From Geobacillus stearothermophilus ATCC 12980 (lineage in GTDB: Bacteria > Bacillota > Bacilli > Bacillales > Anoxybacillaceae), in NCBI RefSeq assembly GCF_030369615.1, contig NZ_CP128494.1, positions 1,445,501 through 1,509,500 on the forward strand: a stretch of 64,000 nucleotides of DNA, in the 5' to 3' direction. Position 1 is the stretch's first letter. Every line of letters starts with the position of its first letter. Of the stretch, positions 24,405-37,893 are shown piece by piece. The notes under the pieces are model-generated. The model was not told the origin of the DNA. It saw only the letters and a list, made by a program, of their open reading frames with translations, and did not search any database. Made by a program: the position numbers and the translations under genes.

Positions 24405-24507
24405 AGAAAAATGTATACGAAAGCCGTAAACGGCCCAAACAGGCCCAATGCAGCCATCATTCTCCCGCACGTCTGCCTATAGTCCCGTAGGCATCCGTCC
24501 GATCCAA

Positions 24508-24672
24508 ACAAGGCAGGTCTCCTGACTTAGGATCATCGCTTGACGGCGTCTTCCCGAAGCATCCTTCAGTGACTTGTTGCCGCAAAGCTCCCCATCACAG
24601 TGGCGGGCACCGTGCCGGATTTTCACCGGGCTTCCCTTTTCACCCAAACCCTAGAGCAGGCTTAGGCACCTT
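24508..24672 (-). ncRNA. Cobalamin (B12) riboswitch
   Basis: On the minus strand the RNA shows AGGTGCCTAAGCC at the 5' end, then AAAGGGAAGCCCGGTGAAAA, ATCCGGCACGGTGCCCGCC and ACTGTGA in order. It ends with a perfect B12 box AGTCAGGAGACCTGCC at 24512-24527. These are the conserved core elements of the cobalamin riboswitch class. It heads the cbiW-to-cobO operon. Confidence 0.96.
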
Positions 24673-24748
24673 GTTTGTCTTACCGCCATATATGCGCTGT
24701 CATGGAACAAGCATCCGTTTTCATCGTAGTACAACCAATGCGTTGCCG

Positions 24749-25472: not shown

Positions 25473-25544
25473 CTGGGCTAGCTGGATTCGAACCAGCGCA
25501 TCACGGAGTCAAAGTCCGTTGCCTTACCGCTTGGCTATAGCCCA
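25473..25544 (-). tRNA. trnQ: tRNA-Gln (anticodon TTG), CCA not encoded
   Basis: On the minus strand the acceptor strands TGGGCTA and TAGCCCA pair perfectly. The D arm is AGCCAAGCGGTAAGGCA, the anticodon arm CGGACTTTGACTCCG with TTG, and the T arm CTGGTTCGAATCCAG. It matches Bacillus tRNA-Gln over its length. The discriminator G is followed by CTG rather than CCA, so the CCA end must be added by the nucleotidyltransferase. Confidence 0.95.
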
Positions 25545-33203: not shown

Positions 33204-34094
33204 TTACGGCACATCATGCCCCATGGAGCTTTGTAAGATAGCGAACCATTGCTCGCGGGAAAGCGGAAGCGACAACGCCCGCACCGCCCGCTCGATGCGT
33301 TCTTGTTTCCCCGAGCCGACAATCGGCATCATCCGCGCTGGATGAACGAGAAGCCACGCGTACAACACTTCGTCGATCGTCTCAGCGCCCACCTCACCCC
33401 GCACTTGTTCAAGCGTCCCGCGCAACCGCACCGCCCGGTCATCGTCAGCGGAAAAAATCACCCCGCCGGTGAGCGGCGACCATACCATTGGCGGAATGCG
33501 CTTCTCAAGGCAAAGGTCAACGGTGCCGTCTTCAAGATTTTCCAACTGATACGCCGATACTTCGATTTGGTTGGTCACGAGCGGAAACGGCAAATACGAC
33601 TGAAGCATTTCCCACTGCGAACGTTTAAAGTTGGAAACGCCAAAATAGCGCACTTTTCCATCCTGCTTGAGTTGGAGAAACGCCTCGGCCACCTCTTCCG
33701 GGTTCATAAACGGATCCGGGCGGTGGATAAGCAATACATCAATATAATCGGTATGGAAGTGTCGAAGGGATTGCTCAACCGAAGCGATGATATGATTTTT
33801 GCTTGTATCGTATAATTTCATCCCGTACTTCGATGGCAGCTTGATGCCGCATTTCGTCACGATCTCGATCTGACCGCGCAAGCTTGGCTTTAACGCCAGG
33901 GCTTCGCCAAAGCGCGATTCACACGTATAGTCGCCGTAAATATCAGCATGGTCAAACGTCGTAATGCCGCGCTCAAGACAAAATTCAATGAGCCCGAGCA
34001 GCTGCTCGCGCGAATAGCCCCAGTCCGCAAGCCGCCAACAGCCGTGAATGAGGCGGGAAAACGTCAAATCGTCCGCCAACCGAATTCGTTCCAT
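33204..34094 (-). CDS. Aldo/keto reductase (YdhF/YcsN-like)
   Basis: A 296-residue (alpha/beta)8 reductase. The catalytic tetrad is visible: Asp and Tyr in FDHADIYGDYTCE near 47-55, Lys in VTKCGI near 79, and His in LLIHRPDPFMNPEE near 123. GVSNFKRSQWEML and PIVGSGKQERIERAV bind NADPH. Physiological substrate unknown. It is divergent from the oligoendopeptidase gene with only 89 bases between starts. RBS AAAGGGAGAC. Confidence 0.9.
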   Translation of the reverse strand: MERIRLADDLTFSRLIHGCWRLADWGYSREQLLGLIEFCLERGITTFDHADIYGDYTCESRFGEALALKPSLRGQIEIVTKCGIKLPSKYGMKLYDTSKNHIIASVEQSLRHFHTDYIDVLLIHRPDPFMNPEEVAEAFLQLKQDGKVRYFGVSNFKRSQWEMLQSYLPFPLVTNQIEVSAYQLENLEDGTVDLCLEKRIPPMVWSPLTGGVIFSADDDRAVRLRGTLEQVRGEVGAETIDEVLYAWLLVHPARMMPIVGSGKQERIERAVRALSLPLSREQWFAILQSSMGHDVP

Positions 34095-34183
34095 TGATTG
34101 TCTCCCTTTCTTTATTTTTGGCTAAAATCGTTCCGCTTGCGCATACTACCAACAAGAGGAAAAAACGGAAAGGACGTGATGAT

Positions 34184-36040
34184 ATGAAGCGCTGGCTTCT
34201 TGGGCTCGCCGCTGTGCTTCTTTTCGCCTCCCCATGGCCGGCATCAGCCGCCGAAACCGCATACGAATGGAACCTAGCCGACATTTATCCATCCGAAGCC
34301 GAGTGGATGCACGACTACAAGGCGGTGCAAAACGCCTTGCCGAAACTGGCGGCGTTTGAAGGAAAACTCGATGATGAAAAGACGATCGCCAAACTGTTCG
34401 CCCTCAACGAACAAACGGCCCGCAAGCTCGAAAAACTGGCGCTTTACACCCATTTAAAACGCGATCTGAACATTGAAGACGAGGCAGCGGCCCGGCTTGG
34501 GGCAAAAGTAGAAGCGCTCGCCGCCCAATATGCGGCGAAAACAGCGTTCATCGAGCCGGAACTGCTCGCCCTACCCGAGCGGACGCTCAAGAAGCTCCAA
34601 ACGAGCAAAGAGCTGAAAGCGTACCGCTATTACTTCCATGAGTTGCGCGAGCAAAAGCCGCATACGCTTACGAAACGCGAAGAACGGCTGCTCGCGAAAC
34701 TATCGCCGGTGCTCGGCGAGGCGGAGAACATTTATGACCACGCCGTCCGCGGCGATTACGAGCCGCCGTCTGTCACGATGCCGAATGGAAAAACAGTGAC
34801 ATTGACCGACGACCAATACGCCGCCATGCTCGAGCACCCGGACCGCCGCTATCGAAAGGCGGCGTTTGAAGCGAAAGCGAAAAGCTATGAGGCGCTCGAG
34901 CAGACCGCCGCGGCGACGTTGTACGCCTCGGTCAAAGCGGACGAATTGTATGCGAACGTGCGCCGCTATCCATCCGGCCTGGCCGCCGCTCTGGCCGCCG
35001 ACGATGTCCCGAAGGAAGTGTTCGACAACTTAATCGCCGCCACCCGCCGCCATTTGCCGGCGCTGCACCGCTATATCGAATTGCGGCGGCGCGCGCTCGG
35101 GCTTGACCGCGTTCACAGCTATGATTTGTACGTGCCGCTTGTCGGCGAAACGGCGAAATCGATCCCAGTTGAAACAGCGAAAACGTTCATTGTCGAAGGG
35201 CTCAAGCCGCTCGGCGCCGACTATATCAAACAGGTGCACCGAGCGTTTCAAGAGCGATGGCTTGATGTCTTCCCGCGCCCGAAAAAATATACCGGCGGCT
35301 ACAACACGGGAGCGTATGACACCCATCCGTTCATCTTGCTCAATTACAACGGTTCGCTTGATGGCGTATTGACGATGGCTCACGAGCTTGGGCACGCCAT
35401 GCATTCCGTCTACACGAACCGCGCGCAGCCGTACCATTATTCCGGTCATTCGATTTTCACCGCCGAAGTCGCCTCGACCGCGAACGAATGGCTCATGCTC
35501 GATTATTTGTACAAACAGGCGAAAACAAAAGAAGAAAAACTCCGCCTGCTCGTCGAACAAATCGAGCAAATCCGCGGCACGTTGTACACGCAAGTGATGT
35601 ATTCCGAATTTGAACGGATGATTCATGACAAAGTGCGCCAAGGCGGCAGTCTGACAGCGGACGAACTGAACCATCTTTGGCTTGGCCTGCTGAAAACGTA
35701 TTACGGCCCGGCGTACGCCGCCGATCCCGGCGCCGCGCGCGGCTGGCTGCGCATCCCACATTTTTATGACGCCTTTTATGTATACAAATATGCCACTTCG
35801 CTCGCGGCGTCGTACACCATTGTGAGCGGCATCCAAACCGATGCAAGCGGCAAGGCGGTGAAGCGGTACACACAATTTTTGCGCTCCGGCGCATCCGATG
35901 ATCCGATCCGTCTGCTCAAGCGAGTCGGAGTGGATATGACAAGCCCCGAACCGATCGAGCGGGTCTTAGGTCATTTCGCCGAACTCGTTGACGAACTCGA
36001 TCGACAGCTGCCAAGCCAAAACCGTCAGCGGTCTATATAG
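34184..36040 (+). CDS. pepF: Exported oligoendopeptidase F (M3 family)
   Basis: A 618-residue PepF-type metallopeptidase with zinc motif HELGHAMHS near residue 400, a downstream EVASTANEWLM glutamate, and NTGAYDTHPFILLNYNG typical of the family. Unlike usual cytoplasmic PepF it begins MKRWLLGLAAVLLFASPWPA followed by SAAET, a clear Sec signal peptide with a cleavable SAA site, so it is predicted to act outside the membrane on short peptides. The ATG at 34184 has AAAGGACGTGATG upstream; an ATG at 34094 would hide the signal peptide. No clear terminator follows. Confidence 0.92.
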   Translation: MKRWLLGLAAVLLFASPWPASAAETAYEWNLADIYPSEAEWMHDYKAVQNALPKLAAFEGKLDDEKTIAKLFALNEQTARKLEKLALYTHLKRDLNIEDEAAARLGAKVEALAAQYAAKTAFIEPELLALPERTLKKLQTSKELKAYRYYFHELREQKPHTLTKREERLLAKLSPVLGEAENIYDHAVRGDYEPPSVTMPNGKTVTLTDDQYAAMLEHPDRRYRKAAFEAKAKSYEALEQTAAATLYASVKADELYANVRRYPSGLAAALAADDVPKEVFDNLIAATRRHLPALHRYIELRRRALGLDRVHSYDLYVPLVGETAKSIPVETAKTFIVEGLKPLGADYIKQVHRAFQERWLDVFPRPKKYTGGYNTGAYDTHPFILLNYNGSLDGVLTMAHELGHAMHSVYTNRAQPYHYSGHSIFTAEVASTANEWLMLDYLYKQAKTKEEKLRLLVEQIEQIRGTLYTQVMYSEFERMIHDKVRQGGSLTADELNHLWLGLLKTYYGPAYAADPGAARGWLRIPHFYDAFYVYKYATSLAASYTIVSGIQTDASGKAVKRYTQFLRSGASDDPIRLLKRVGVDMTSPEPIERVLGHFAELVDELDRQLPSQNRQRSI

Positions 36041-36088
36041 ATGCAATTTAAAGCTTTAACATTTTTTGTCTTTGCCGGTCATTGCATC

Positions 36089-36215
36089 CGACTGTCGAGT
36101 GACCGAACAACGCCGCTTAAAGACCCATATATGGGTCTGTGAAGCAGGTGGTTGTTCGGTCTTCCGTCACGCCTTGGCGTGACGGGGCAAGCCACACGCT
36201 TGCCTTCGACAGTCG
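36089..36215. repeat. Cloverleaf-forming palindromic element (four-way junction), 127 bp
   Basis: Five perfect stems nest in 127 bp. The closing stem is CGACTGTCGA (36089-36098) with TCGACAGTCG (36206-36215). Arm 1 is GACCGAACAAC (36101-36111) with GTTGTTCGGTC (36151-36161), continued by GCTT/AAGC and capped by the palindrome AGACCCATATATGGGTCT (36121-36138). Arm 2 is CCGTCACGCC (36164-36173) with GGCGTGACGG (36176-36185). Arm 3 is GGCAAGC (36186-36192) with GCTTGCC (36198-36204). Junction linkers are only 0-2 bases. It encodes no protein. It could be a structured RNA, a MITE-like mobile repeat or a DNA cruciform; the sequence does not tell which. Confidence 0.85.
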
Positions 36216-36283
36216 AAAATGGACAAACCGCTTTTCCGTCAAGGATATGTTAAACTTCTTCGTTACATCTATATACATGAAAG

Positions 36284-36310
36284 AGGTGTCCCGCGCCGTT
36301 CGGGACACCT
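36284..36310. terminator. Strong hairpin between pepF and pncB
   Basis: AGGTGTCCCG pairs perfectly with CGGGACACCT around a 7-base loop, followed by TTGTTATT on the plus strand and CTTTC on the minus strand. It probably separates convergent transcription of pepF and pncB; the T tracts are weak. Confidence 0.55.
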
Positions 36311-36423: not shown

Positions 36424-37893
36424 TTATTCACTTAAAGATGCGCCTGCAATTTTTTCTTTCACCTTGCGGATGTTTTCCATCTTATTGTCCCAACACGCTT
36501 GGCTCAAATCAACGGGATATTGCTCGGGATTGAGCGTCCGTTTGTACTCCTCCCAAAACAAGCGCAAGCTTTCTTTTGCGTACGCTTGAATGTCCGGAAG
36601 CGGCGGCGACGTATACACGAGCCGGCCGTTGTCGAAGATCGTCACATGCAAGTCACGCGCTTCGAAATTGGTGACGAATTTGCTGATGAACGTGTACACC
36701 GGATGGAACATTTTCAACCGCTCTTCTTGCTGCGGGTTTTCGCTCTCTAAGGCGATGTAGTCGCCTTCCGCTTTATGGTTGATTTTGTTGACGATGCGGT
36801 ACACCCGCTTCAGCCCCGGCGTCGTCACTTTTTCCGGATTGCCGCTGATTTTGATCGTATCGACCATCTCACCGCGTTCGTTTTCGATCGCCACCATTTT
36901 GTACACGGCGCCGAGCGCCGGCTGATCGTACGCCGTAATGAGTTTGGTGCCGATCCCCCACACATCGATTTTCGCCCCTTGCGACTTCAAGTTTAAAATC
37001 GTATCTTCGTCCAAATCGTTTGAGGCGAAAATTTTCGCGTTCGGAAATCCGGCTTCATCGAGCATTTTCCGCGCTTCTTTCGACAAATAGGCCAAATCGC
37101 CGCTGTCGATGCGGATGCCGATAAAGTTGATTTGGTCGCCCAGCTCCTTCGCGACGCGAATGGCGTTTGGCACCCCCGACTTCAACGTATCGTACGTATC
37201 GACAAGAAAGACACAGTCTTTATGGCGGCGTGCATACTTCAAAAAGGCCGTGTATTCATCCTGATACGCTTGAATCATTGAATGGGCGTGCGTTCCGGCG
37301 ACCGGAATGCCAAACAGCTTCCCGGCACGCACGTTTGATGTCGCCTCAATCCCGCCGATATACGCTGCGCGCGCGCCCCAAAGCGCCGCATCCATCTCCT
37401 GCGCCCGCCGGCTGCCGAACTCCAAGGCCGGCTCATCCCCGAGAATATGCTTAATGCGCGACGCTTTCGTGGCGATGAGCGTCTGGAAATTGATAATGTT
37501 TAAAATAGCCGTTTCGATGAGCTGCGCCTCGGCGAGCGGCGCCTCGATGCGCATAATCGGTTCATTGGCAAACACCACTTCCCCTTCGCGCATCGAACGG
37601 ACCGTGCCGGTGAAGCGAAGCGTCCGCAAATAGTCTAAAAAGTCGTCGCGGTAGCCAAGTTCTTGGCGCAAATAGTCGATGTCGCTGTCAGAAAATCGGA
37701 ACTGCTGCAAAAACTGAATGACGCGCTCCAACCCAGCGAACACCGCATAGCCGTTGCCAAACGGCAGCTTGCGGAAAAACACTTCAAACACAGCGCGGCG
37801 CTCATGCATACGATCTTCCCAATACGTCTCGACCATATTGATTTGATATAAGTCCGTATGAAGCATCAAGCTGTCATCAGCATATGTCTTCAT
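36424..37893 (-). CDS. pncB: Nicotinate phosphoribosyltransferase
   Basis: A 489-residue NAPRTase of the long Gram-positive type: LHTDLYQINMVETYW near 12, FEVFFRKLPFGNGYAVFAGL near 37, LEFGSRRAQEMDAALWGARAAYIGG near 170, GTHAHSMIQAY near 208 and FIGIRIDSGDLAYLS near 260. It converts nicotinate and PRPP to nicotinate mononucleotide in NAD salvage. The neighbouring nicotinamidase gene on the same strand supplies the nicotinate, so the pair forms a salvage module. Confidence 0.95.
   Translation of the reverse strand: MKTYADDSLMLHTDLYQINMVETYWEDRMHERRAVFEVFFRKLPFGNGYAVFAGLERVIQFLQQFRFSDSDIDYLRQELGYRDDFLDYLRTLRFTGTVRSMREGEVVFANEPIMRIEAPLAEAQLIETAILNIINFQTLIATKASRIKHILGDEPALEFGSRRAQEMDAALWGARAAYIGGIEATSNVRAGKLFGIPVAGTHAHSMIQAYQDEYTAFLKYARRHKDCVFLVDTYDTLKSGVPNAIRVAKELGDQINFIGIRIDSGDLAYLSKEARKMLDEAGFPNAKIFASNDLDEDTILNLKSQGAKIDVWGIGTKLITAYDQPALGAVYKMVAIENERGEMVDTIKISGNPEKVTTPGLKRVYRIVNKINHKAEGDYIALESENPQQEERLKMFHPVYTFISKFVTNFEARDLHVTIFDNGRLVYTSPPLPDIQAYAKESLRLFWEEYKRTLNPEQYPVDLSQACWDNKMENIRKVKEKIAGASLSE

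Follow-up and report, generated by a model that had tools for sequence, protein, structure and literature searches.

What is the strongly self-complementary DNA that separates pepF from pncB in Geobacillus stearothermophilus ATCC 12980, and does its fold matter as RNA or as DNA? The window, which here means the whole analysed stretch of 64,000 nucleotides (NZ_CP128494.1, positions 1,445,501 to 1,509,500), contains at 36089..36215 a 127-bp cloverleaf that a preliminary description, made from the letters alone, had singled out. All five of its stems are present. The preliminary description joined them by almost no linker; the stems are indeed perfect, but imperfectly paired linkers (36112-36120 and 36139-36150) flank the 18-bp palindrome and separate it from the 11-bp arm. 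The pairing goes far beyond chance, as had been claimed. The core folds with -82.8 kcal/mol on the + strand, compared to a shuffled mean of -40.4 (sd 3.7, z -11.5), and with -82.9 kcal/mol on the - strand (z -13.3); on each strand, 0 of 200 shuffles folded as well. The preliminary description could name no RNA class for the fold. A scan of the whole window with Rfam at gathering score found no family at the element, the same search found none in L341, L353, L355, L356, L176 and L163, and matches below the threshold were at chance level only.

The cloverleaf is the interior only of a larger element, 36036-36273, whose inverted ends the preliminary description had missed. The features are as follows.

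36036..36273, + strand: whole non-autonomous element (TA-type MITE), 238 bp, from filled versus empty orthologous sites and copy alignment
36034..36035, no strand: left TA target-site duplication, from the single TA at the empty sites of L062, L065 and L066
36274..36275, no strand: right TA target-site duplication, from filled versus empty sites
36036..36062, + strand: left terminal inverted repeat (TATAGATGCAATTTAAAGCTTTAACAT), from complementarity of the arms
36247..36273, - strand: right terminal inverted repeat, from complementarity of the arms
36038..36040, + strand: TAG in the element's end, now the pepF stop codon, from the ORF 34094-36040 and TGA in empty sites
36089..36215, + strand: cloverleaf core, the conserved module, from folding, core alignments and the covariance model
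36089..36098, + strand: closing stem of 10 bp, 5' side (3' side 36206-36215), 100% complementary
36101..36161, + strand: long arm, an 11-bp stem (36101-36111/36151-36161) with the 18-bp palindrome 36121-36138 at its tip, both 100% complementary, halves changing together
36164..36185, + strand: arm 4, a 10-bp hairpin (36164-36173/36176-36185), 100% complementary, loop in both orientations among copies
36186..36204, + strand: arm 5, a 7-bp hairpin (36186-36192/36198-36204), 100% complementary, loop in both orientations among copies

The terminal inverted repeats form 29-nt arms, including the TA, that are 76% complementary. No ORF of at least 80 aa lies wholly within the element; a 104-aa ORF begins inside it at 36219.

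The neighbouring genes had been named correctly. pepF ends at 36040 and matches TIGR00181 over the cut-off, and the convergent nicotinate phosphoribosyltransferase gene (pncB) ends at 36424 on the opposite strand. The end of pepF is present in all 14 genomes of the genus, and three of them (our own, L063 and L064) have the element in the gap. The same gap is without the element and has a single TA in L062, L065 and L066, which read TC-TA-CATG compared to TC-TA-[TATAGATGCAA...CATCTATA]-TA-CATG at the filled sites; the remaining 8 gaps are diverged and also without it. The comparison of empty and filled orthologous sites therefore sets the element at 238 bp here, with the TA duplicated. The insertion replaced the pepF stop, so that R-S-T-TGA at the empty sites became R-S-I-TAG in the window copy. 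An ordinary terminator was rejected for the cloverleaf because the sole terminator-like site, 36284-36310, reported by the scan on the - strand, falls outside the element. Elsewhere in the window lie a cobalamin riboswitch (24495-24688, - strand) and a tRNA gene (25473-25544, - strand). The window copy is a mosaic: over the compared range 36050-36261, it follows the orthologous insertion of L064 on the left (36050-36120) and a paralogous type, that of L008, on the right (36129-36261), except at 36194-36197. This pattern in the letters suggests gene conversion between dispersed copies.

The preliminary description had offered a MITE-like mobile repeat among its readings, to be recognised by dispersed copies with target duplications, and both were found. 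The DNA, taken with short flanks, matched 27 distinct places in its own genome, three of them (L025-L027) partial; further rows were arms matching within the same copies. In the correctly oriented copies of this genome, both ends are common and similarity is lost just outside. Matches by DNA similarity were obtained in 26 of 61 genomes, our own included: 13 of 14 in the genus, 13 of 23 elsewhere in the family (some being single weak matches) and 0 of 24 in the rest of the order. The exact core motif occurs in 105 stretches of named genomes, and the 80 listed all belong to Geobacillus or Anoxybacillus. Three plasmid records matched, one of which is pHTA426 of G. kaustophilus, and no phage record matched the element. 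Two IMG/VR contigs (L327 and L328) contain the exact core motif, and copies may ride on prophage-like DNA. Among the copies with two TA-ended termini, TA stands on both flanks in 47 of 60, on one flank in 4 and on neither in 9, several of which read one TA shorter at each end. These 60 come from 89 copies; 14 with an end lacking the terminal TA, others with a poorly matched end and one duplicate were left out. Being short, non-coding and dispersed, with terminal inverted repeats and a TA target-site duplication, the element is a TA-type bacterial MITE, and we see hardly any room for doubt about this assignment. A search of the literature by titles and abstracts gave no recognised description of this repeat, and the papers found with the letters of its ends look unrelated by title.

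Some copies lie in compound arrangements. At G000:C1:2809100-2809561 two MITE copies are in tandem, with a terminal TATA common to both. Another short unit, about 106 bp long (TCCTGAAAATACC...GGGAGTC), sits in the terminal TA of the MITE (G000:C1, L182-L190) and apparently has a TA duplication too. It adjoins a MITE end in 7 of its 9 full-length copies (match start 1501 when oriented), and the unit or a variant is found at one end of 10 of the 27 own MITE copies. It may target MITE ends.

The ends of the element point to its likely mobiliser. Genes for PF13358 transposases are present in all 14 genomes of the genus. In L121, a 1197-bp IS element flanked by TA has the ends TATACATGCTCATTGAAAAGTTAAC and TATACATGCAACATGAAGAGTTAAC, and its protein scores as an IS630 transposase with 266 bits (cut-off 100). 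The best IS630 end agrees with the window copy at 20 of 26 terminal bases, with an Anoxybacillus tepidamans copy (G032) at 22 of 26 and with an A. amylolyticus copy (G030) at 23 of 26. We searched 14 genomes of the genus and 8 of the family for PF13358 and examined the ends in 48 loci, a part of the matches; no IS among these had ends identical to those of the MITE. The link of the MITE to the IS630 family is thus probable, not proven. For G. kaustophilus, an IS survey counts four copies of IS630 on the chromosome; its main text contains the word MITE 0 times (PMC8024623).

The copies also tell how the interior has changed. L006, L019, L024-L027, L140 and L161 were left out and identical elements merged, which gave 75 elements; after L180 (85 bases) was dropped and identical cores were merged, 71 distinct cores remained, in which 94.6% of cells pair. 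Changes on both sides of a pair were seen in 11 of 56 pairs compared to a shuffle mean of 7.0, which taken alone is a modest signal. The covariation term of RNAalifold for these cores was small (-1.27), and its junction was partly different. Forty-two pairs are Watson-Crick to at least 90%; they contain 42 G.T and 40 A.C cells, each type in 20 pairs. Over all pairs the counts are 189 G.T and 112 A.C, with the excess mostly at junction pairs; the junction columns 10-125, 11-124 and 26-67 hold 114 G.T cells, their commonest pair. If selection acted on one RNA strand, G.U should be tolerated but A.C should not; the balance at the well-paired positions therefore indicates no RNA-strand bias.

In arms 4 and 5, the 71 cores carry loops of either orientation, which are exact reverse complements of each other: CTAAGG 13 times and CCTTAG 6, CCTTGG 22 and CCAAGG 8, CTGTG 20 and CACAG 13, CATAG 5 and CTATG 5. 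The aligned cores of L148 and L152 differ by one loop flip only. On a tree of 68 cores, built without the loops and with L160, L179 and L181 left out, arm 4 has 21 inferred changes, of which 10 are exact reverse complements, and arm 5 has 29, of which 11 are. Relabelling of the loop states gave a mean of 1.3 each (P = 0.002 for arm 4; P below 0.00005 for arm 5). Events may be overcounted if gene conversion has occurred between copies, but conversion creates no flipped states. The central loop did not flip in close relatives (ATGAAT 22, ATTCAT 0); ATGTAT (8) and ATACAT (4) are reverse complements but belong to different groups. In 78 further copies from named genomes, some of which are also among the 71 cores and of which 22 and 28 fall outside the simple pattern, flips were seen again (GCCAAGGC 8 and GCCTTGGC 7, CCACAGG 6 and CCTGTGG 6, TCACAGA 13 and TCTGTGA 2), along with common loops without a flipped partner (GCGAAGGC 23/0, GCTAAGGC 5/0, TCACACA 7/0). 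In the long arm, one half changes in step with the other, even by indels, as in CTTCACAG/CTGTGAAG of L008, CTTAAAG/CTTTAAG of L014 and CTCCCAG/CTGGGAG of L171, and in L135 there is a perfect 18-bp run from the loop. PMC8794818 gives inverted loops, multiple compensatory changes and insertions in stems as signatures of template switching. Strand-neutral pairing together with loop flips therefore points to DNA whose stems would be repaired by template switching, and such upkeep of the core at the DNA level is, in our judgement, probable. The cruciform DNA element named in the preliminary description would agree with the same two features. In 55 Geobacillus compared to 15 Anoxybacillus copies, the mean identity was 79% in the core and 47% in the rest, excluding the terminal 11 bases and scoring gaps as differences.

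The 71 cores are mostly close relatives, and a deeper set was made. A covariance model of the core matched in 13 of 299 genomes of the order, our own included; the four outside the family are G166 (10 matches at 9 places), G227 (6), G202 (1) and G146 (1). Among 398 genomes of the class, which overlap the 299, five matched, all within the family; matches by chance thus seem to be rare. Except for a TA-type copy (L339) and a damaged one (L358), both in G166, the fetched copies of G166, G227 and G202 bear ends of an entirely different sequence, GGCTGTTTTCGTAAACTTTGTTGC and GGCTCTTTTCTAAAAGATTGTTGC (GGCTGTTTTCG ends, here GGCT type). The preliminary description had missed that the cloverleaf lies inside this second, unrelated element. 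With at most one mismatch, the GGCT-type ends occur 133 + 117 times in G166, 81 + 75 in G227 and 4 + 4 in G202, while the reversed control gave 0 occurrences. An exact 8-bp AT-rich duplication flanks 16 of 27 rows and one of 6 or 7 bp flanks 2; of the 9 rows without any, two are over-long readings of elements also listed. Complete elements are 185-204 bp long; L386 and L382 have lost arms and are among the elements that still carry 8-bp duplications. No pair of these ends was found around any transposase gene in 30 loci, L353 and L341 had no matches in plasmids or phages, and the exact end was absent from viral contigs. A single-copy cloverleaf in L356 (G020) has another inverted repeat, TGTTGATGATCCA, with the direct repeat TAAAAAAATAGCA, and possibly represents a third type of ends.

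From 58 matches, 31 cores were structure-aligned, with opposite-strand and partial matches, L357 and a true second copy (L008:1738-1864) left out. Both-side changes were found in 46 of 56 pairs, and at least three Watson-Crick types in 28; 1593 of 1696 cells pair, compared to a shuffle mean of 1281 and maximum of 1312. These counts ignore relatedness and come from an alignment fitted to the covariance model, which favours pairing; that the long arm changes its sequence but stays paired is also evident from individual folds of distant copies. There were 69 G.T and 48 A.C cells; leaving aside the two junction pairs 11-319 and 12-317 brings these to 45 and 47. Each arm has a nearly invariant motif: the long arm GAC/GTC close to its tip, arm 4 CACGC/GCGTG and arm 5 CAAG/CTTG. 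The core is what the TA-type and GGCT-type elements have in common, and it is very probably the same module in both. The preliminary description had taken compensatory changes as the mark of a structured RNA. This rule misleads here, for such changes are plentiful in the deep alignment but stand alongside DNA-level signatures, and covariation alone is no proof of a functional RNA. Its overall interpretation was thus right about a MITE-like repeat and astray in its RNA criterion.

How the element would move and keep its fold can be pictured as follows. Most likely, a transposase related to that of IS630 acts in trans, cutting at the ends and pasting the element at a TA. When the region becomes single-stranded, the arms would snap back and fold, and a polymerase could switch template between arms, so that stems are repaired and loops inverted. 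Because the fold is common to two different transposition systems, it would be kept as an aid to the element, for example by joining the two ends or by hairpins that promote copying. Such help in movement or copying is a tentative reading, possible and short of probable, which we favour over the cloverleaf as a passenger and over an RNA role in untranslated regions.

A structured RNA or riboswitch confined to the pepF-pncB region would suit the position between two genes and the strong fold, but 3 of 14 genomes have the element in this gap and it occupies 27 places in its own genome. This reading, which we give practically no chance, was rejected on the dispersed copies, the empty sites and the lack of an Rfam family. 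It is also improbable that the core works as RNA. In this reading, the transcript of an element that has come to lie in an untranslated region would fold into the cloverleaf and stabilise or end the mRNA or expose it to RNase III, and selection would keep the fold for that effect. The very strong fold on both strands and the abundant covariation of the 31-core alignment would agree with it, as would the location of copies between ORFs (a rough ORF count) and of the window copy in the 3' region of pepF, before the terminator-like site. Precedents are the Correia/NEMIS transcripts and RNase III in the account of PMC2229807, and bcr3, reported in transcripts of longer half-life (PMC3446304). One-strand selection, however, is not what balanced G.T and A.C at well-paired positions or flipping loops lead us to expect; no Rfam family matches, and relative to co-directional neighbouring ORFs the 27 own copies show no clear preference for either orientation (6 same and 13 opposite in a rough count).

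Template-switch mutation alone could also raise palindromes and keep them perfect, the cloverleaf being a passenger of no use to element or host. That a mutational process of this kind is at work is shown by the flipped loops and the coordinated changes of the arms; their signatures match those in PMC8794818, and the GGCT-type L386 and L382 have lost arms and still carry duplications. Mutation bias alone, however, would neither keep the letters at the tips of three arms nearly invariant across families, where the rest of the stems differs, nor move the module between end types, and the core is more conserved than its flanks. We regard the passenger as a rather unlikely account. Taken as a whole, the best explanation, which we regard as probable, is a TA-type MITE, most likely moved by an IS630-family transposase, with a conserved, shared cloverleaf that would act as DNA.

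MITEs are usually viewed as two ends with dispensable filler. In this case, the interior surpasses most of the rest in conservation and recurs in two elements whose ends are unrelated and whose duplications differ, which suggests selection on a folded interior. We suggest, as a conjecture, that the cloverleaf is a portable structural cassette of mobile DNA, exchanged by unrelated transposons and acting at the DNA level on both strands, in joining ends, in hairpin-driven copying or as a platform for host proteins, and that it would be repaired by template switching rather than by stepwise compensation. The copies are also natural material for measuring template-switch repair of palindromes, as loop orientation can be read in dozens of them.

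Among known systems, the template-switch evolution of RNA hairpins (PMC8794818) is alike in loop inversion, multiple compensatory changes and insertions in stem halves; it concerns rRNA and microRNA genes, and "mobile" and "transpos" occur 0 times in the main text. The bcr1-bcr3 repeats of the Bacillus cereus group, compared by description, are likewise dispersed, MITE-like and from Bacillales (PMC3446304, PMC6542083), but the mobility of group A is linked there with a TTTAT motif (PMC6542083), in place of which we found TA or 8-bp duplications. CIR of Caulobacter and Brucella have more than one arm and a conserved fold, but as described in PMC2229807 they consist of two arms joined by a linker and have no inverted ends. 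Correia/NEMIS elements of Neisseria, likened by their description in PMC2229807, share TA at the ends, inverted ends (24 bp), a target duplication and folded transcripts, and differ in size (about 107 and 155 bp) and genus. RUP of Streptococcus pneumoniae, a MITE linked to IS630-Spn1, is 107 bp long compared to 238 bp here and, according to PMC2229807, is like our element short, non-coding and dispersed, with a TA target and IS630-type ends; for transcripts of such repeats that review gives long stem-loops, unlike the three-armed cloverleaf here. By its ends and target, the element resembles RUP and the Correia elements.
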